Source: Methylosinus sp. C49
Lineage (GTDB): Bacteria; Pseudomonadota; Alphaproteobacteria; Rhizobiales; Beijerinckiaceae
Reading direction: 5' to 3'
DNA length: 64,000 nt
NCBI RefSeq assembly: GCF_009936375.1
Contig: NZ_AP022332.1
Location: forward strand, 2,884,501 to 2,948,500
Each line of letters starts with the position of its first letter. Position 1 is the first letter of the stretch. The notes beneath the pieces are model-generated. The model was not told where the DNA came from. It saw nothing but the letters and a program-made list of their open reading frames with translations, and made no database searches. Shown piece after piece: positions 8,304-17,063 of this stretch. The position numbers and the translations under genes were made by a program.

Positions 8304-8747
8304 GTGATGATCCGCGCGACCGAACGCAGGAAGACGCCGTTCCTGGTCTCGACGGCCACGAAGCCTTGCGGCGTCGAATCCTTCGCCCGCCATGTGGCGG
8401 CGCGATGGGGCGAGCTCGGCCTCGAGGCGCAGCGGCTCGCCGTCTCGCGCCGCGGCAGCGTGCTCGCCTGCCTGCAATCCGGCAAAGCCGGTGATCGTCA
8501 ACGCGCCGCGAGAGGCCGGCGAGTTCGATCATCGCTCCTATCGCCGCGCCATCGCCGACGGCTCGCTGATGCTGCTCGCCAATAACGCCGACGCGCGCGC
8601 CTATGCCGACGCCTCGCGCGCGCAGAAAGCCCGCCCTCGCGCACGCTGTCGCCAATCTTTGATCAGTGCTGGCGCGACGCCGCCGCCACTATCGCGGCCG
8701 CGCTCGATACGGAGCCCATGAACGCCGCCCCGCTTGTGGCCGAGTAA
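8304..8747 (+). pseudogene. decayed glycosyltransferase-like gene
   Basis: Three coding-looking segments lie in two alternating frames. From 8304 (GTG, or ATG 8307) the frame encodes a start resembling a GT4 glycosyltransferase (FLVSTATKPCGVESFARH, comparable to the GGVE motif). Near 8475 the sensible reading jumps one frame (VIVNAPREAGEFDHRSYRR, then ADGSLMLLANNADARAY). Near 8635 it returns to the first frame (SPIFDQCWRDAAATIAAAL) and ends at the TAA 8745-8747. The total is far shorter than an intact glycosyltransferase, so an internal deletion plus frameshifts is likely. Two sequencing errors could explain the frame changes but not the missing length. It lies at the 3' end of the exopolysaccharide gene on the other strand. 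Confidence 0.5.
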
Positions 8748-8762
8748 GAAGACGAGACCGCG

Positions 8763-10928
8763 TCAGGCGGTCTTGCGCGTCTCCGCGCGACGGCGCGCAT
8801 CGCGGCGCGGCAGCCAGGGATCGCTATGATCGACTCGCAAAATCACCGCGATCTTCGCGCGCAGCGCCGCCGGAAGCTCGGCGATCGCAGTCTCCTCGTC
8901 CTGATCGCGGCCGAGCACGGGCGCTACAAAGTCGAGCCGCTCGAACATGCTCTCATCCGAGCCGACGCCATCGCAGAGCACGATATCGACCTCGGCCGGA
9001 TTGCCGTCCCGGAAGCCGTCGACGATGCGCTCCACCGCGCCGGCCGCGCGCGAGCGTCGATCGATCGCCGGCAGCGCCAGCAGCACGCTGTCGTCGGTGC
9101 GCACGAAAGGATCGTCGGCGTCGCCGAACGCCTCGAGCCCATCCTCGATGAGAACGGTGAGCGCCGCATGATCGCGGTCCGCATCGACGAGCGCCACCTC
9201 CAGATGCTGCAGCCGCAGCGCCAGAGCGATATTGACGGCCATCACTGTGCGAATGGAGCCGGGCGCATCGCCGACCAGCCCGATGACGAGCGGCCGATGC
9301 GCGCTCTCGGCGACCAGCGCGCCGAAGCGCGACACCACCGCCTCGAGCTCGCGGCGATCGGCGAAAGGCCGCACGAAAGGAATGCCGAGCCGCGTCAGCT
9401 CGAGCCGCTCCGGCCCCGACGTCGGCCCACGCACGGTGAATTTCGTCGCATCGGTCACAGCGACGCGCACAGGCTCGGCCTCGACATCGCGCCGAGGCCC
9501 CGACTCGGGCGCCCCGCTGAAGCCGCCCTCACGCAGAAAAGCCAGGCCGAGGCCCAGAGTGAGGCCCGCGACGAAGCCCGCGCCCGTCATCAGCCCGGCG
9601 CCGGGCGGAAAACTGCGCGCGATCGGCGGCGTCGCCATTGTGATGATATGCGTGCTGGCCGCGTCCAGCTGCCGCGCCTCGCCGGTCTGACGCGAGCGCG
9701 TCAGGAAGGATTCGTAGATCGAGCGGCTGACCTCGACCTCACGCTCGAGATCGCGAAGCTTGACCGAAGCTTGCGCCGAGACGACGGCCTTGCCCTCGAG
9801 CTTCTGCATCTCGCGGTTCAGCGCCTCCTCGGTGCTCCGCGCGCGCTCATAATCCTTGCGCAACGAGACGGCGACGCGCGCCAGCTCGGTACTGACGAGG
9901 CGCTTGGTCTCGGCGAGCCGCGCCGTCGCATTTTTGACGACCGGATGCTGCGGCCCGAGCTCGGCGGAGAGATCGGCCAGCTTTTGCGCCGCCTCCGCCT
10001 GCTGCCCGCGCAGCGCGTTCAAGGTAATCAAATTCATATTGGCGGCGATGGCCGCGAGCTCCGTGTCCGAATGCGCCGCGCGCTGCACCTGCTCGAAGCG
10101 CGAGCGCGTGTCCTCGAGCCGCGTGCGGGCGAAGGTGAGCTGCTGGTTGAGCTCCTTCAGCCGCTGCTCGTCTATATAGGAATCGCGTGTGCCGACGAAG
10201 CCGTTCTCCGCCTTATAGGCCTCGACGGCTTTTTCCGCGGCGAGCAGACGCTCGCGCAGCCCGTCGAGGCGCCCGGTGAAGGAGCTCGCCGCCTGCTGCG
10301 CGGCGTCCTTGTGCATCGTCGAGCGCACATCGATATAGGCCTGCGCCACCGCATTGGCGATGCGCGCCGATTTCTGCGCATTGTCGCTCGAAGCGGCGAT
10401 GTCGATGATGAAAGTGCGCTCGGGACGGCGCACCATGATTTTGGTGCCGAGCGCGCGCACGGCGCCGTCGACGATCTCCTCCTTCGTCGGCGCGCGGCCG
10501 AAGCGGCCGAACAGCTTGCCGAACAAGGACGTCGATGCGCCGAACTCGGGATCCTCGGTGAGCTTCTCCGCCTCCACGACGCGCTCGAGCACGACCTGCG
10601 AGGTCAAGATGCGGGTCTGCGTCTCGACGAAATTGATAAAGCCGGTCGAATCCTGGCCCTGATTGGCGTCGCCCTCGAGACCGGGTAGCCCGCGCGGATC
10701 GAGATAGATCTGGGCGGCCGCGACATAGCGCGGCGTCAGCAGCTTGGTGAGCGCATAGCCGCCGACCGCGCAGGCGAGCGCGACGGACAGGATGAAGAGC
10801 TTGTTGCGAAGAGCGAGCGAAATCAAGCGTCCCGGCGTCAGCGAGGAACGCGCGCGCGGAGGCTCCGCGGCCGCTGGCCGCTGACGTTCTGCGAGACTTT
10901 TCGACCCGGATTCATAATCCAACATCAC
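8763..10928 (-). CDS. Wzz/GumC-type exopolysaccharide co-polymerase with degenerate kinase domain
   Basis: Polysaccharide co-polymerase of the inner membrane that controls chain length and export. Helix 1 is near residues 41-61 (LFILSVALACAVGGYAL). A Wzz domain follows with a long coiled coil (about 195-400) and the GNVR-like region. Helix 2 is near 445-465. The C-terminal part (about 545-721) looks like the bacterial tyrosine kinase domain: Walker A' is kept (VALVDADRD, 578-586), but the Walker A site reads GDAPGSIRT, lacking the invariant Lys, and there is no C-terminal tyrosine cluster. It is therefore probably not an active kinase. No other assembly gene is adjacent apart from the glycosyltransferase remnant. 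Confidence 0.87.
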   Translation of the reverse strand: MMLDYESGSKSLAERQRPAAAEPPRARSSLTPGRLISLALRNKLFILSVALACAVGGYALTKLLTPRYVAAAQIYLDPRGLPGLEGDANQGQDSTGFINFVETQTRILTSQVVLERVVEAEKLTEDPEFGASTSLFGKLFGRFGRAPTKEEIVDGAVRALGTKIMVRRPERTFIIDIAASSDNAQKSARIANAVAQAYIDVRSTMHKDAAQQAASSFTGRLDGLRERLLAAEKAVEAYKAENGFVGTRDSYIDEQRLKELNQQLTFARTRLEDTRSRFEQVQRAAHSDTELAAIAANMNLITLNALRGQQAEAAQKLADLSAELGPQHPVVKNATARLAETKRLVSTELARVAVSLRKDYERARSTEEALNREMQKLEGKAVVSAQASVKLRDLEREVEVSRSIYESFLTRSRQTGEARQLDAASTHIITMATPPIARSFPPGAGLMTGAGFVAGLTLGLGLAFLREGGFSGAPESGPRRDVEAEPVRVAVTDATKFTVRGPTSGPERLELTRLGIPFVRPFADRRELEAVVSRFGALVAESAHRPLVIGLVGDAPGSIRTVMAVNIALALRLQHLEVALVDADRDHAALTVLIEDGLEAFGDADDPFVRTDDSVLLALPAIDRRSRAAGAVERIVDGFRDGNPAEVDIVLCDGVGSDESMFERLDFVAPVLGRDQDEETAIAELPAALRAKIAVILRVDHSDPWLPRRDARRRAETRKTA

Positions 10929-11325
10929 GCGAGTTCCGTTCCGACGTCGAACAAGCGAGCACAGTCCCGCATTCGCGTTGAAGGCGAATGTTCCATTTCA
11001 TGGTTAACGTTTCTTAAACTCCTCTCTCTCATTCATCCTCTTCATGTCGAAAATAGGGTCTGCGGAGACGATTCGCCACGTTTCACGGTCGTGACAGAAT
11101 TCGAGACGCCTCGGGTGTCTCGTCTGTGTCCAGAACATCATAGCCTCGTATCATTTTCACGCAAATGGCCCGGGATTGCTTTCTCGAACGGGTCAAATTT
11201 TATGGAACGAATTTGGCAACGATCAAATCCGCAAACTGTTCACCAACGAACGCCAATTTAGCTGAAAATGCAGCGCGAACGCGTATGGTGACGATGAAAC
11301 TCGAGCTTGGTCGATGGAGATAATG
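10929..11325. other. intergenic region with divergent promoters
   Basis: About 400 bases, visibly AT-richer than the genes, between the minus-strand co-polymerase and the plus-strand carrier-protein cluster. It must hold promoters for both. A 9-bp hairpin with one G-U pair (CGAGACGCC/GGTGTCTCG, 11102-11122) is the only clear secondary structure. I see no convincing small gene. Promoter elements could not be fixed. Confidence 0.6.
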
Positions 11326-11568
11326 ATGCTCGATACGATTAGACGACTCGTCGATGAACAAGGCCGCTTGGCCGTGGCCGCCGAGACGATCGGCGACAAT
11401 GCCGATCTCTACGCCACGGGCCTCACATCCTTCGCCGCGGTCCAGCTGATGCTGGCGCTGGAAGAGACGTTCGACGTCGAATTCCCCGACCGCATGCTCA
11501 ACCGTCGCAGCTTCTCCTCGATCGCCTCGATCGCCGGCTGCCTGCACGAGCTCAAGGAAGCCGCTTGA
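11326..11568 (+). CDS. acyl carrier protein-like carrier protein
   Basis: An 80-residue acidic carrier protein. The phosphopantetheine attachment site is Ser35 in ATGLTSFAAVQLM; the usual D-S-L is T-S-F here, a pattern seen in carriers served by amino acid:[carrier protein] ligases rather than fatty acid synthase. The rest (LALEETFDVEFPDRML) fits helix II-III of ACP. ATG 11326 is chosen because GGAGA sits five bases upstream; in-frame ATGs at 11314 and 11323 are worse placed. Its stop overlaps the next gene (TGATG). It opens the five-gene cluster ending at 17063 and is presumably the covalent tether for the activated amino acid. Confidence 0.87.
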   Translation: MLDTIRRLVDEQGRLAVAAETIGDNADLYATGLTSFAAVQLMLALEETFDVEFPDRMLNRRSFSSIASIAGCLHELKEAA

Positions 11569-12725
11569 TGAACGCGCCACTCGATCGCGGAGCGAATGTC
11601 GTTGCGACGGCCGCCCGCCACGCCGACGATGTCGACCGCAACGGCCGTTTCCCGATCGAGGCGTTTCAGGCCCTCAAGGACGCGCGCCTGCTCTCGCTGC
11701 TGATCCCGATCGAATTCGGCGGCGGCGGAGCCCCGCTCTCGGATGTCGCGGAGATCTGCACCTCGCTGGGCCAGCAATGCGCCTCGACGGCTATGATCTT
11801 CGCCATGCATCAGATCAAAGTGTCTAGCCTCATCGCGCATGGCCGCGGCAGCGCCTGGCACGAGAGCTTCATGCGCCGCGTCGCCGACGAGCAACTGCTG
11901 CTCGGCTCCGCGACGACGGAAGGCGGCGTCGGCGGCAATATGCGCAACAGCATTTGCGCCTTCGAGCGCGACGGCGCGACATTCCGCATCGCCAAGGAAG
12001 GCGCGCTCATTTCCTACGGCGCCTATTCGGACGCGATCCTCATCACCGCGCGCCGCTCGGCCGACGCGCCGCCCTCCGATCAGCTGATGGCAGTGCTCGA
12101 GAAGAGCCAATATCGGCTCGACCGCACCGGCGGCTGGGACGCGCTCGGCATGCGCGGCACCTGCAGCGAAGGCTTCACCTTCAGCGGCGAGGCGCCGATC
12201 GAGCAGATCTTCACCCATGACTTCGCCGAGATCGCCTCCGAGTCCATGCTCGCGACCGCGCATCTTCTGTGGAGCGCGGTGTGGTACGGCGTCGCCTCGG
12301 ACGCTCTGTCGCGCGCGCAATCCTTCGTGCGCAAGGATGCGCGTCGCCATCCCAATGGCCCGGCTCCCGGCGCGCTGCGTCTCGCCGAGGCGACATCAAA
12401 GCTGCAGCTGATGCGCTCCAATATCGTCGAAGGGCTGAAGCGCTTCGCCAAGGCGCAGCAGAACGCGGACGATCTCAATTCGATGAGCTTCGCCGTCGCG
12501 ATGAACAACATCAAGATCGGCTCGTCGCAGCTCTCGATCGAAATTATCAATCATGCGCTGCTGATCGCCGGCATCGCCGGCTACAAGAACGACACGCCCT
12601 TCAGCGTCGGCCGCCATATGCGCGACGCGCTCTCGGCGCAGGTGATGATCTCCAACGACCGCATCTTCACCAATCTGTCCAATCTGCTGCTCGCGCAGCG
12701 CATCGACCAGCGGCTGGGAGACTGA
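11568..12725 (+). CDS. acyl-CoA dehydrogenase-like flavoprotein
   Basis: A 385-residue member of the acyl-CoA dehydrogenase superfamily. It has the N-terminal helical domain (LLIPIEFGGGGAPLSDVAEICTS), the middle beta domain with LGSATTEGGVGGN and the C-terminal helical bundle (GYKNDTPFSVGRHMRDALSAQVMISNDRI). FAD binding is expected from the family. Placement between a carrier protein and an aminoacyl carrier protein ligase suggests that the substrate is a carrier-bound aminoacyl thioester, as for the prolyl-carrier dehydrogenases of pyrrole biosynthesis; this is inference. Start ATG 11568 overlaps the carrier stop; a TTG three bases earlier is also in frame. Confidence 0.87.
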   Translation: MNAPLDRGANVVATAARHADDVDRNGRFPIEAFQALKDARLLSLLIPIEFGGGGAPLSDVAEICTSLGQQCASTAMIFAMHQIKVSSLIAHGRGSAWHESFMRRVADEQLLLGSATTEGGVGGNMRNSICAFERDGATFRIAKEGALISYGAYSDAILITARRSADAPPSDQLMAVLEKSQYRLDRTGGWDALGMRGTCSEGFTFSGEAPIEQIFTHDFAEIASESMLATAHLLWSAVWYGVASDALSRAQSFVRKDARRHPNGPAPGALRLAEATSKLQLMRSNIVEGLKRFAKAQQNADDLNSMSFAVAMNNIKIGSSQLSIEIINHALLIAGIAGYKNDTPFSVGRHMRDALSAQVMISNDRIFTNLSNLLLAQRIDQRLGD

Positions 12726-12728
12726 CCC

Positions 12729-13640
12729 ATGTGCCAGGCCTGCGACAGCTTCCTCGATCGCCTTTTCGCCAAGGGCGTTCTGCATGAAACCGGCGTCGAC
12801 GGACTCTATGGCCGCGGGCAGGCCTTCGAGGCGGTCATAGAGGGAATGGATCGGCTGATCACGCGCCTCGCCGAAGGCGATCACGCCGAGGTCATCCGCT
12901 TTCCGCCCGGCATGAATCGCGCGCTCTTCGAGAAGAGCGGCTATATGAAGAACTTCCCGCAGCTCGCCGGCACGGTGCACAGCTTCGCCGGAAGCGAGAA
13001 GGATCATCTCGCCCTTCTCGACAATATTCACAACGGCGGCGACTGGACCGGCGCGCAAGGCGCGACCGACATCGTGCTGACGCCCGCCGCCTGCTATCCG
13101 CTCTATCCGATCGTCGCGCGCCGCGGCCCGCTCGCGCCGGAGGGCGGCCTCTTCGACATTCAATCCTATTGCTTCCGCCACGAGCCGTCGAAGGATCCGG
13201 CGCGCATGCAAATGTTCCGCATGCGCGAGTTTGTTCGCATCGGCTTGCCGGAGCAAGCCGCGAGCTTCCGCGAATCCTGGCTGGAACGCGCCCGCGGCTT
13301 CGCCGAGACGCTCGAGCTGCCGCATCACATCGATGTGGCCAATGATCCATTCTTCGGCCGCGCCGGACGGATGATGGCCTCGAGCCAACGCGAGCAGGCG
13401 CTGAAATTCGAGTTGCTGGTGCCGATCGAGAGCACGGAAAATCCGACCGCCTGCCAGAGCTTCAACTATCATCAGGATCACTTCGGCGAGCTGTGGGGCA
13501 TCAAGACCGCCGCCGGCGAGACGGCGCACACCGCTTGCGTCGGCTTCGGAATGGAGCGCCTCGCCCTCGCCTTGTTCAAACATCACGGGATCGACACCAA
13601 TGGCTGGCCGACCTCAGTCCGCGCTGCTCTCTCTCTCTGA
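12729..13640 (+). CDS. amino acid:[carrier protein] ligase (SerRS-like, class II synthetase fold)
   Basis: Relative of the Bradyrhizobium and Agrobacterium enzymes that activate a small amino acid with ATP and load it on a carrier protein instead of tRNA. At 303 residues it is the catalytic core only, with no tRNA-binding arm. Class II motif 2 is visible ([25 protein letters not shown]) and motif 3 ends in [12 protein letters not shown]. The active-site zinc ligands of atypical SerRS proteins are present as Cys122 (AACYPLYP), Glu167 (MREF) and Cys270 (HTACVGF), spaced as I remember them from the B. japonicum enzyme. The amino acid (Gly or Ala in characterised enzymes) cannot be read from the sequence. 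Overlaps the next gene by 41 bases. Confidence 0.9.
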
Positions 13641-14607
13641 CGCGGAGCTCTCGCCGCTGAAGCCGGCGAAGCCGCATTTCCGTCACGCTCTGCATCATGC
13701 AGAGCGCGATTGGCCGCAGACCAATTGCTATGTCGATCTCATGATCGAGCTCGTCGCTATGCGTGGATTCGAGCCGGAGGCCATGCTCGGCTTCACGCTG
13801 GCGCAGGATTTCGAAGAAGATCAGCTCACCTTCTTCAAGCCGCGCCTCGCCGATCTCGAGCGTCTCTACGGCCTTCGCGTCGAGGAGCTGGCGCTCTATG
13901 ATCGGCTGGACAATCACATCGCGCGTCAGACCGCGCGCGGCCGCGTGGTGATGGTGGAGGTGGACGGCTATCATCTGCCGGACACGCGCGGCGTCACCTA
14001 TCGCATCGATCACTCCAAGACGACGATCGGCGTCACGGAAATCGATCTTTCAGCGCGGCGGATCGACTATTTCCACAATGACGGCCATTTCGCGCTCGAC
14101 GGCGAGGACTTCGACGCGATCTTCGGCCGCGCCGGCGAAGCGCGCGATCTCGCCGCTCTGTTTCCTTACGCCGAATTCGTGCGCTTCGACCGCGAGCGCA
14201 CGCATGCGGATTTGCGCGGAACGGCGGAAGAACTGGCGCGAGAGCATTTCGCGCGCCGCCCGAGCGACAATCCGATCCACGCCTTCGCCGCGCGCTTCCC
14301 CGCGCTGTGGAATGTGCTGGAAGCGCGCCCGCCATGCTTCTTCCATAGCCTCGCGTTCAACACGTTCCGCCAGCTCGGCGCCAATTTCGAGCTGCTCGGC
14401 AGCCATCTCGATTGGCTGCGGCCGAATGGCGATCTCGCCGTCGAGGCGGACGCCTGCCGACGCATTTCGGCCGGCGCCAAGGCGATGCAGTTCCAGGCGG
14501 CGCGCGCCTCTGCGCGCAAGCGCGTCTATGATCCGCGCGAGACGCTCGACGAACTCGCCGGCGTCTATGACGGCTTGTTCGGAGGTCTCTCGGCGAAGCT
14601 GCGCTGA
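13600..14607 (+). CDS. DUF1839 family protein
   Basis: A 335-residue soluble protein that I recognise as the DUF1839 family, usually found beside amino acid:[carrier protein] ligases. Visible features are a Cys-rich-protease-like start ([19 protein letters not shown]), [17 protein letters not shown], and [22 protein letters not shown] Cys/His/Asp arrangement resembling a papain-like or transferase triad (Cys in TNCYVDL, His in DGYHLPDT) is conceivable but not proved. It may transfer or release the aminoacyl group from the carrier. The 41-base overlap with the ligase gene shows tight co-translation. Confidence 0.8.
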
Positions 14608-14612
14608 AACCG

Positions 14613-17063
14613 ATGATGCGCGCGCGCGTCGAAGGAGAAAAGCGCCAGCGCCTCGACGCCGGCTGGACTTTCGCGATCGACGAGGCCGGCGAATGGACGG
14701 AGCCATCCGCCATTCCCGGCGCCGCCTCCTGGCGCGCGACGCGCGTTCCCGGCACGCTGGCGCAGACGCTGATCGCGGAAGGCGCGCGCTTCGAAGAGCT
14801 GCCGCCGCTCGACGCCATCGACGTCTGGTACAAGACCTCCTTCGTCAATTCTGCGCCGGCGGAGCTGCGCCTGCACGGCCTCGCCACGCTCGCGGACGTT
14901 TATCTCGATGGAAGGCTCGCGCTGCGCTCGGACAATATGTTCCACGCGCACGCAATAGAGGTCGCGACGCAAGGCGCGCATGATCTTCATATTCGCTTTC
15001 GCTCTGTCGAGCGCGAGATCGCCACGAAGAGCGGCCGCGCGCGCTGGCGGCCGCGCATGATAACGCCGGCGGGCCTGCGCCACATACGCACGACGGCGCT
15101 CGGCCGCCTTCCCGGCTTCGCGCCGCCGACGCCGCCGGTCGGTCCCTGGCGCGAGATCGAGCTGATCGAGCATGGCGCGCTGCGTCTGCGCAATGTGGAT
15201 ATGCGCGCCACCGTCCACGATGGTCGCGCCGAGCTGCGCGTCGCGCTCGAAATTTCCGGCCTCACGGATGCTCCTGCGCGGCTCTTTTGCGGCGGAACGG
15301 AAGCGCCCTTCACGCGCGTTGCGGATAATCGCATCATCGCCGAGCTGTCGCCGCCCGACGCGCGGTTGTGGACGCCGCATACGCATGGCGAGCCGCATCT
15401 CTATGATGTCTCGGCCACGATCGGCGCGCATCGCATCGATCTCGGCCGCACCGGCTTTCGCGACATTCGCGTCGATCGCGGCGCGGATGGCGCCGGCTTC
15501 GCGCTACAGGTGAACGATATTCCGCTGTTCTGCCGCGGCGCCTGCTGGACGACGGCCGACGCCGTGTCGCTCGCCGGCGACCGAGAGGATTGCGGGCCGC
15601 TGCTGCGCGCGATGCGCGACGCCGGCATGAATATGGTTCGCGTGCCCGGCGTCACTCTCTATGAGAGCGATGATTTCTACGCGCTCTGCGACGAGCTCGG
15701 CCTCATGGTCTGGCAGGATTTCGCCTTCACCAATTTCGATTATCCGTTTCAGGACGCCGCCTTCCGCGCCAGCGCTGAACGCGAGGCGACGGAGTTTCTG
15801 GCGCGCACGCGATCCTCGCCTTCGCTCGCCGTGCTCTGCGGCGGCAGCGAGGTCTATCAGCAAGCGTCCATGCTCGGCCTCGCCGAGGCCAAATGGCGCA
15901 CGCCCTTCTTCGACGAGACTCTGCCAGAGCTCGTCCGAGAGCAGCGTCCCGACGCCATCTATGTCGAGAACTCGCCCTCCGGCGGTCCCCTGCCCTTCCA
16001 TGCCGATGTCGGCGTCTCGCATTACTATGGCGTCGGCGCCTATCGCCGCGGCCTGGACGACGCCCGCCGGGCCAATGTGCGCTTCGCTTCCGAATGTCTC
16101 GGCTTCGCCAATATCGCGGATGACGCCGCGCTGCGCCGCGACTTCGGCGACGCCCCGCTCGCATCGAAACTCTTCGCCGAACGCATCGCGCGCGACATGG
16201 GCGCGACGCAGACTTTCGGCGACGTCACCGAACATTACATGCGCCTGCTCTATGGCTGCGAACCGACGACGCTGCGCGAGAGCGATCCGCAGCTCTATCT
16301 CGACATAGCGCGCGCCGCAGTGGCCGAGACGATGGAAGCGACGATCGGCGAATGGCGACGCGGCGGCTCCACGACTCATGGCGCCATCGTCTGGTTCCTA
16401 AAGGATCTGTGGCCCGGCGCCGGCTGGGGCGTTCTCGATGCGCATGGCGAGCCGAAATCCGCCTATCATGCTTTGGCGCGCGCCTTTCGTCCACTGTCGC
16501 TCATGCTCACCGACGAAGGCGTCAACGGGCTCTTCGCGCATTTGCGCAATGACGGCCCGCAGCGTATCGAGGGCGAGATTTCGCTGGCCTGCTATCGCAA
16601 CGGCCATGTGCCGGTGATGAGAGCGAGCCGCAGCGTCGCCGTCGAGCCGCATGGCGTCGCGACATTGCGCGACGCGGAATTCTGGGGCGGATTTTTCGAC
16701 ACGGCGCTCGCCTATAATTTCGGGCCGCCGTCGCATGATTTGACCGTCGTGCGCTTCATCGGCGCGAATGGCGTCGAGCGCGAGGCCTTCCATTTTCCGC
16801 TCGGCCGCAGCGCGGCGAAAGCGCAGCTCGGCTTGACCGCGGAGACAGAGGAGGACGACAGCGGATTCGTTCTCGCTCTATCGACGACGATCGCCGCGCA
16901 ATCCGTTTCGATCGAGGATGAGCGCTTTCTTCCTGGCGAAAGCTGGCTGCATCTCGCGCCCGGCGCGACGCGGCGCATTCGCCTCGTTCCGCGATCGGCC
17001 GACGTGGGACGCCCCAAGGGAATCGCGCGAGCGCTGAACGGGGAAACGATCGCCTACGGCTAG
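14613..17063 (+). CDS. glycoside hydrolase family 2 protein (beta-mannosidase-like)
   Basis: An 816-residue cytoplasmic protein with no signal peptide. The order is the GH2 sugar-binding domain (about 10-185, with ATLADVYLDG and VGPWREIELIEH), immunoglobulin-like domain (190-295), TIM barrel (from GACW at 309) and C-terminal beta domains. Barrel landmarks are MVRVPGVTLYESDDFYALCDELGLMVWQDF, the acid/base region CGGSE (Glu413) and a candidate nucleophile Glu494 in RFASECLGF. Beta-mannosidases have CGNNE at the first site; here the Asn is Ser. Starts five bases after the DUF1839 gene, so it belongs to the carrier-protein cluster. Substrate unknown; a cytoplasmic glycosidase here is unexpected. 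Confidence 0.85.
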   Translation: MMRARVEGEKRQRLDAGWTFAIDEAGEWTEPSAIPGAASWRATRVPGTLAQTLIAEGARFEELPPLDAIDVWYKTSFVNSAPAELRLHGLATLADVYLDGRLALRSDNMFHAHAIEVATQGAHDLHIRFRSVEREIATKSGRARWRPRMITPAGLRHIRTTALGRLPGFAPPTPPVGPWREIELIEHGALRLRNVDMRATVHDGRAELRVALEISGLTDAPARLFCGGTEAPFTRVADNRIIAELSPPDARLWTPHTHGEPHLYDVSATIGAHRIDLGRTGFRDIRVDRGADGAGFALQVNDIPLFCRGACWTTADAVSLAGDREDCGPLLRAMRDAGMNMVRVPGVTLYESDDFYALCDELGLMVWQDFAFTNFDYPFQDAAFRASAEREATEFLARTRSSPSLAVLCGGSEVYQQASMLGLAEAKWRTPFFDETLPELVREQRPDAIYVENSPSGGPLPFHADVGVSHYYGVGAYRRGLDDARRANVRFASECLGFANIADDAALRRDFGDAPLASKLFAERIARDMGATQTFGDVTEHYMRLLYGCEPTTLRESDPQLYLDIARAAVAETMEATIGEWRRGGSTTHGAIVWFLKDLWPGAGWGVLDAHGEPKSAYHALARAFRPLSLMLTDEGVNGLFAHLRNDGPQRIEGEISLACYRNGHVPVMRASRSVAVEPHGVATLRDAEFWGGFFDTALAYNFGPPSHDLTVVRFIGANGVEREAFHFPLGRSAAKAQLGLTAETEEDDSGFVLALSTTIAAQSVSIEDERFLPGESWLHLAPGATRRIRLVPRSADVGRPKGIARALNGETIAYG

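Follow-up and report, generated by a model that had tools for sequence, protein, structure and literature searches.

What becomes of an amino acid that has been loaded onto a carrier protein, when the genes around that carrier code for a flavoprotein, a protein of the DUF1839 family and a glycoside hydrolase? The question is raised by five genes in a 64,000-nucleotide stretch of the genome of Methylosinus sp. C49 (contig NZ_AP022332.1, positions 2,884,501 to 2,948,500; this whole stretch is called the window hereafter). They code, all on one strand, for a carrier protein (CP), a flavoprotein with the acyl-CoA dehydrogenase (ACAD) fold, a ligase resembling seryl-tRNA synthetase (SerRS), a DUF1839 protein and a glycoside hydrolase family 2 (GH2) protein, a set that had been proposed in an initial annotation made from the letters alone and that has been confirmed by Pfam and NCBIfam matches. 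The role of SerRS-like amino acid:[carrier protein] ligases has been called unknown in a 2022 review (PMC9437257). The reading towards which we lean is that these genes form, in general terms, a cytoplasmic module for decorating an exopolysaccharide (EPS) with aminoacyl groups.

The evidence that the five genes belong together comes from their conservation. Loci were collected through matches to DUF1839 or to the ligase, so that co-occurrence is conditional on these two families, and 121 loci (numbered L) were examined after removal of 8 duplicates sharing an identical 200-base piece. Of the sequences passing a length filter, 38 of 108 were used for the ACAD model and 49 of 105 for the DUF1839 model. 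DUF1839 is present in 105 of the 121 loci, counting L143, where it was matched in two frames and scored as present, and in 96 of these 105 all five genes occur in the same order on one strand. The gaps between matched regions have medians of 34 to 66 bases in the 96 complete cassettes; the one between DUF1839 and GH2 exceeds 150 bases in 13 of them and reaches 2.6 kb in L138, where it holds other open reading frames (ORFs). The nine incomplete DUF1839 loci fall into three kinds (contig ends, extra copies and split sets): four (L078, L094, L101 and L107) are each cut by a contig end, L127 and L182 are extra DUF1839 copies in genomes that hold another, L119 has its ligase and carrier about 31 kb from DUF1839, in L230 CP-ACAD-ligase lies in a different place and the GH2 is divergent and gave matches in two stretches, and the GH2 of L128 (genome G186) was located on a different contig, some 30 bases away from the double hydrolase described below. 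The co-conservation that had been predicted is thereby borne out, including the regular company that GH2 keeps with the four core genes. At the level of genomes, GH2 was found in 4 of 4 genomes with DUF1839 that were searched (in G1525 as a distant match only) and in 0 of 7 without it. Together with the fixed order, this has led us to reject GH2 as an accidental neighbour. A chance cluster of ORFs has been discarded as well, given the family matches, the co-conserved order and the fact that in all five genes the differences from three relatives (L067, L069 and the same-genus L106) fall mainly on third codon positions. Few genomes overall hold DUF1839 (5 of 385 in the window's class and 16 of 398 in its phylum), and it is common in two families, the window's own (40 of 199) and one that is Burkholderiaceae-like (141 of 299), a label that rests partly on gene order. 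The cassette is also found in methanotrophs, Azospirillum and other Alphaproteobacteria, and its hosts include many bacteria of soil and water.

The second line of evidence is the setting of the cassette. At least one of a group of EPS families (glycosyltransferases, flippase, Wzy-like, Wzz/Wzc, sugar transferase, ManC, beta-helix and double hydrolase) lies in the fetched stretch of 77 of the 105 loci with DUF1839, as opposed to 3 of the 16 without it; these families were chosen after the loci had been viewed, and the former count becomes 53 of 105 when the double hydrolase is excluded. For example, in L217 a glycosyltransferase (GT), a sugar transferase and a Crp-like regulator are followed by CP-ACAD-ligase-DUF1839-GH2 and then by a sigma-54/VpsR regulator, a GT, ManC and a beta-helix protein. 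Among the 25 Burkholderiaceae-like loci, the sigma-54/VpsR regulator has been found in 7, ManC in 7, both in 5, and the Crp-like gene in 18. The becA-R biofilm EPS cluster of Burkholderia includes a cyclic-nucleotide-binding protein (becE), an acyl-CoA dehydrogenase (becG), a sigma-54 regulator (becL) and ManC (becP), and the order of the genes named there agrees with that of L217 (PMC5507470). By position, CP, ligase, DUF1839 and GH2 would also have their places in bec. In the same source, a transposon mutant of becG has been reported to form smooth colonies and less biofilm than the wild type (OD600 of 0.84 vs 1.25), the mildest loss in its Table 1 (PMC5507470). The locus tags BCAM1343 to BCAM1348 are not named in the open-licence literature searched. 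That the cassette is functionally linked to EPS is, on this evidence, highly probable, and the sugar partner that had been suggested for the aminoacyl group gains support from the EPS setting.

The commonest other neighbour of the cassette has about 590 residues and carries two alpha/beta hydrolase domains, matched by the families of exosortase-A-associated hydrolases 2 and 1 (TIGR03101 and TIGR03100), both below cut-off. Neither this sixth partner nor the EPS link had been noticed in the initial annotation. The double hydrolase (E ≤1e-20) is present in all 48 genomes chosen among those with DUF1839, as opposed to 3 of the 43 chosen among those without it; both sets were hand-picked, the 48 with many-contig drafts largely excluded and the 43 unmatched by phylogeny. 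Nine of the 43 were known ligase carriers and none of these has the double hydrolase; since two of the three positive genomes (G395 and G1284) also carry the ligase, the count among known ligase genomes without DUF1839 is 2 of 11. It lies inside the fetched stretch of 41 of the 105 DUF1839 loci and no more than 25 kb from DUF1839 in 37 of the 48 genomes, a count in which six DUF1839 positions come from rounded cassette coordinates. In all 46 aligned rows (45 distinct), its second domain has an Asp-His pair and a nucleophile elbow of the form G-x-C-x-G, with Cys as the nucleophile; in its first domain the corresponding residue is Arg in 33 rows and Gly in 13, and hence not a nucleophile. In the window's genome, the double hydrolase stands beside a GT2 glycosyltransferase, a Wzy_C protein and DUF6492. 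Other arrangements have also been seen. In G1284 (L243, 8100-12271), CP, ACAD, ligase and double hydrolase lie side by side without DUF1839 and GH2, and in G1212 (L248, 9217-11236), a genome with no ligase match, a carrier gene adjoins the double hydrolase, so the hydrolase may be a partner of the carrier in its own right. In L162 (13873-17196) it is fused to a flippase-like part, the flippase match being weak, and the cluster of this fusion has a second member in L131.

How, then, might the five enzymes act? The window ligase is matched by NF005479 ('amino acid--[acyl-carrier-protein] ligase') with 495.6 bits against a cut-off of 357, its PF00587 match falling below the family cut-off, and residues 9-302 of its 303 align to Bll0957 of Bradyrhizobium (4h2w, 3mey) with an E of about 1e-100, which leaves no room for a tRNA-binding arm. 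We take residues C122, E152 and C242 to be the zinc ligands. In an alignment of 117 ligases, the first two are each conserved in 116 and the third in all 117; both exceptions are gaps. The description of the enzyme as SerRS-like, with the Cys-Glu-Cys triad and without the tRNA-binding arm, is confirmed by this alignment and these residues. The carrier is matched by PF00550 (40.4 bits) and NF005480 (107.8 bits, cut-off 72), and its Ser39 is found in 108 of 108 aligned carriers. By homology, the ligase would use ATP to activate an amino acid and would load it onto the phosphopantetheine arm of the carrier; glycine is the most likely substrate, an assignment in which we have moderate confidence. 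The family is wider than the gene set to which it had been tied, being present in 95 of 397 genomes of the window's order (in 88 above cut-off). Among the 38 hand-picked loci fetched through the ligase (L131-L168), 16 are without DUF1839 and GH2; ACAD and ligase are kept without these two in 12 of the 38, and ten of these 12 also have a divergent carrier gene. The bll0957 locus of Bradyrhizobium is presumably of this ACAD-plus-ligase type.

The flavoprotein would act next. It is matched by PF02771 and PF00441 above cut-off, and its model (pLDDT 91.4) has the ACAD fold, with a Foldseek TM of about 0.8 to many ACADs. The MCAD-type catalytic Glu site (362, set by alignment to 8i4p) holds Ile in 108 of 112 flavoproteins and Val in the other 4, and the IVD-type site, placed by us on the assumption that the IVD motif applies, is Ser, Ala, Thr or Cys in 111 of the 112 and a gap in one, never Glu. 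Classical alpha,beta-desaturation has been rejected as the default role because both acyl-CoA dehydrogenase sites are without Glu; the oxidation of a carrier-bound group that had been proposed may hold, although the acyl-CoA dehydrogenase base is absent. As glycine has no beta-carbon and the flavoprotein lacks this base, the carrier-bound aminoacyl group would be oxidised at C-alpha or at N, giving an imine or glyoxylyl group or an N-hydroxy group. One branch of this step, whose probability overlaps with that of EPS decoration as a whole, is that the flavoprotein is a class D N-oxygenase like KijD3 and DnmZ, which would yield an N-hydroxy or oxime aminoacyl group with the rest of the pathway unchanged. 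The missing Glu at both sites agrees with it, and so do the nearest folds (TdsC/DszC, ACADs, KijD3 and DnmZ) and the nearest sequences (KijD3, DnmZ, nitrososynthase and DszC/TdsC among them). However, true ACADs score equally well in the fold ranking and no flavin reductase has been recognised among the neighbours inspected, which are part of all neighbours, and this branch is put forward only tentatively.

The third enzyme, DUF1839 (PF08893, 371 bits; model pLDDT 90.7), is where the alternatives part. In a Foldseek search of the PDB, all 19 matches with E ≤0.001 are AziU2/U3, CtaG or CcbD, over 321-366 alignment columns and with a query TM of 0.44-0.59. The alignment has 109 rows; of the 108 without a gap, all have His159 and 104 have Cys43. 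The four proteins without this Cys are the cassette copies of genus g571 (Burkholderiaceae-like; L183, L185, L227 and L228), whose genomes hold a second, separate DUF1839 copy that keeps it, which suggests a pair of active and inactive forms. In earlier studies, DUF1839 has been assigned to the papain superfamily on account of a triad of Cys, Thr/Ser and His, with a guessed role in glycan processing (PMC10318531), and CcbD has been described to load its Cys with carrier-bound proline, which it then transfers to a thiooctose amino group (PMC12945683). The predicted fold makes it likely that DUF1839 is a carrier-dependent acyltransferase, in line with the transfer that had been assigned to it. 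From this fold and the conserved Cys and His, its Cys would take the oxidised group and hand it to an acceptor in the manner of CcbD, the acceptor probably being a sugar of a lipid-linked EPS repeat unit or precursor.

Papain folds are also able to hydrolyse thioesters. DUF1839 might accordingly be a thioesterase in a catabolic or redox route that takes glycine to glyoxylate on the carrier, with GH2 serving sugar salvage. The loci that keep only ACAD and ligase would suit such a route, and bll0957 and bll0958 are listed among the genes changed in a phaR mutant (PMC10888616). This explanation is nevertheless quite improbable, as it is opposed by the distribution of GH2 between genomes with and without DUF1839 (including the distant match in G1525) and leaves the EPS setting unexplained. 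A different alternative keeps the transfer and changes the acceptor: DUF1839 would, like CcbD, use a small amino sugar as the acceptor of the oxidised amino acid, GH2 would unmask the product, and the result would be a small diffusible aminoacyl glycoside or amide, a signal or secondary metabolite, with EPS neighbours reflecting co-regulation in biofilms. The nearest folds of DUF1839 do come from small-molecule pathways, the Crp-like regulator recurs in the Burkholderiaceae-like loci, and the GH2 and DUF1839 proteins of the window have no export signal by eye, no predictor having been run. However, among the neighbour clusters inspected there is no exporter or tailoring enzyme as widespread as the EPS-type double hydrolase, and this hydrolase is joined in L162 to the weakly matched flippase-like part, so that a small molecule appears unlikely. 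The product that had been foreseen, an amino-acid-modified glycan or glycoside, is thus narrowed: EPS decoration has become the likelier form and a free glycoside the less likely one.

Under EPS decoration, the last step is the weakest of the scheme. The GH2 protein, beta-mannosidase-like by sequence, is matched by PF22666 (48 bits) and has the beta-mannosidases 5n6u (E 6e-49) and 2je8 (E 2.7e-45) as its nearest solved relatives; E413 and E494, which we assume to be the catalytic Glu pair from the alignment to 2je8, are conserved in all 99 non-gap rows of the 103. Together with the distal double hydrolase, the GH2 protein may act on the acylated glycan ahead of its export or in the course of it, by trimming, editing or completing it. 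The most specific form of the proposal, which would amount to a new kind of polysaccharide modification, is that the ligase and the base-less ACAD build an oxidised form of the glycyl group on the carrier (iminoacetyl, glyoxylyl or N-hydroxyglycyl) and that the papain-fold enzyme places it on a lipid-linked EPS unit, with editing or a second transfer by the Cys alpha/beta hydrolase and GH2; taken as a whole, this chain is possible rather than probable. If true, the substituent would be alkali-labile and would be missed in EPS structures obtained by alkaline extraction, such as that of Bep, so that this procedure may hide amino-acid substituents on biofilm polysaccharides. The component families are already known, and what would be new is their combination as carrier-based aminoacylation of a surface polymer with a distinct enzyme set; no description of the module, the sixth partner or the EPS link has been found among the titles and abstract starts listed in searches of the open-licence literature. 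A conserved six-gene set in EPS loci offers a concrete and testable role for the SerRS-like ligases, and links a pseudo-synthetase, the papain-fold DUF1839 and the chemistry of biofilm polysaccharides.

Several observations weigh against EPS decoration. No chosen EPS family lies in reach of 28 of the 105 DUF1839 loci, the window cassette is flanked by a Wzz-type gene only and not by a full EPS cluster, and the double hydrolase of the window's genome is 1.5 Mb from the cassette, though beside Wzy_C and GT2. The ligase loci without DUF1839 and GH2 imply that the loaded carrier has other uses. As regards DUF1839, a profile search of PDB sequences to an E of 10 gave no match to AziU2/U3, CtaG or CcbD, and its Thr/Ser and His are in exchanged places with respect to the Cys-His-Glu/Asp order of CcbD and CtaG. 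Alkaline conditions, such as NaOH or NaOD, remove ester-linked groups. The structure of the Bep EPS of Burkholderia cenocepacia shows no amino-acid substituent, and it was solved in NaOD on material extracted with 0.3 M NaOH (PMC7084887). Since esters would be lost in this way, that structure decides nothing. Finally, of the 18 bec genes, becF, becM and becO were not found in the transposon screen, becM and becO being absent from the mutant library and becF present in it (PMC5507470); by position becF would be the carrier gene, and this result speaks against the proposal unless another carrier stands in.

The features of the window are collected in Table 1.

Table 1. The cassette and its divergent neighbour in the window (window positions).
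Feature	Position	Strand	Remarks
Carrier protein (CP)	11314..11568	+	84 aa; phosphopantetheine site Ser39
ACAD-fold flavoprotein	11565..12725	+	386 aa; without the acyl-CoA dehydrogenase catalytic Glu
SerRS-like amino acid:[carrier protein] ligase	12729..13640	+	303 aa
DUF1839 papain-fold protein, predicted aminoacyl transferase	13600..14607	+	Cys43, Thr141/Thr142, His159
GH2 protein, beta-mannosidase-like	14613..17063	+	E413 and E494 (both catalytic Glu) kept
Wzz/GNVR chain-length protein, divergent cassette neighbour	8763..10928	-	PF02706 39.4 bits, cut-off 25.5

Two details of the gene layout differ from what had been recorded. The carrier gene itself stands, with a possible start at 11314 as an earlier alternative to the one at 11326, and overlaps of at most five bases do not hold throughout: the ligase and DUF1839 genes overlap by 41 bases, because there is no ATG, GTG or TTG after 13600 before the conserved part of DUF1839. 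The genome of the window (G000, 4.7 Mb) has one DUF1839 and one SerRS-like ligase of the cassette type, and its nearest named locus is that of M. sporium DSM 17706, with 92% identity in DUF1839. The Wzz/GNVR family of the neighbour is found repeatedly near the cassettes of other loci. At 8307-8735 lies a remnant of a GT4-type glycosyltransferase gene, of which only both ends match, in different frames, the middle being gone; this gene is intact in other Methylosinus-like loci (L068, 1773-2903), a label based on locus comparison with M. sporium. Scans for promoters and terminators gave results near chance (1 vs 1.0 and 6 vs 4.4 expected, respectively). An antisense family (c6) proved to be shadows of ligase genes and was set aside.

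The cassette can finally be compared with several known systems. It differs from bec and bep in that the EPS genes accompanying it in methanotrophs, in Azospirillum and in further Alphaproteobacteria are different ones, and its copy in the window lies away from a full EPS cluster. Its ligase resembles Bll0957 (PDB 4h2w, 3mey, 3mf1 and 3mf2) over the full length and in the Cys-Glu-Cys residues, and the gene with the next locus number in Bradyrhizobium, bll0958, is given as an acyl-CoA dehydrogenase, like the ACAD of the cassette. DUF1839 shares with CcbD/LmbD, CtaG and AziU2/U3 a predicted two-part fold over the whole length and a catalytic Cys; however, it has no detectable sequence kinship with the CcbD and CtaG type and occurs in EPS loci, not in antibiotic clusters. 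The sixth partner matches both exosortase-A-associated hydrolases, fused in its single chain, although below their cut-offs and with a Cys nucleophile in domain 2 and Arg or Gly in domain 1. A further comparison is with the Dlt system, which D-alanylates surface polymers. A Dlt-like system has been considered for the cassette; the Pfam scan gave no membrane O-acyltransferase (MBOAT) in the window cassette, but a distant ligase clade does adjoin one in the other four of the 16 ligase loci without DUF1839 and GH2 (L156, L157, L158 and L167). The MBOAT of L156, the one of the four that was tested, matches DltB over its length (196 bits, cut-off 375), and a carrier-like gene of 85-87 aa is present in L156 and L167; this clade looks like a system for aminoacylation of a surface polymer, and a Dlt-like system with a synthetase-like ligase is possible in these four loci. 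In Dlt, as predicted for the cassette, an amino acid is placed on a dedicated carrier and then transferred to a cell-surface polymer, a glycan in the case of the cassette, where the transfer would be the work of DUF1839; by contrast, the cassette employs a SerRS-like ligase in place of DltA, and adds flavoprotein, papain-fold and GH2 enzymes.

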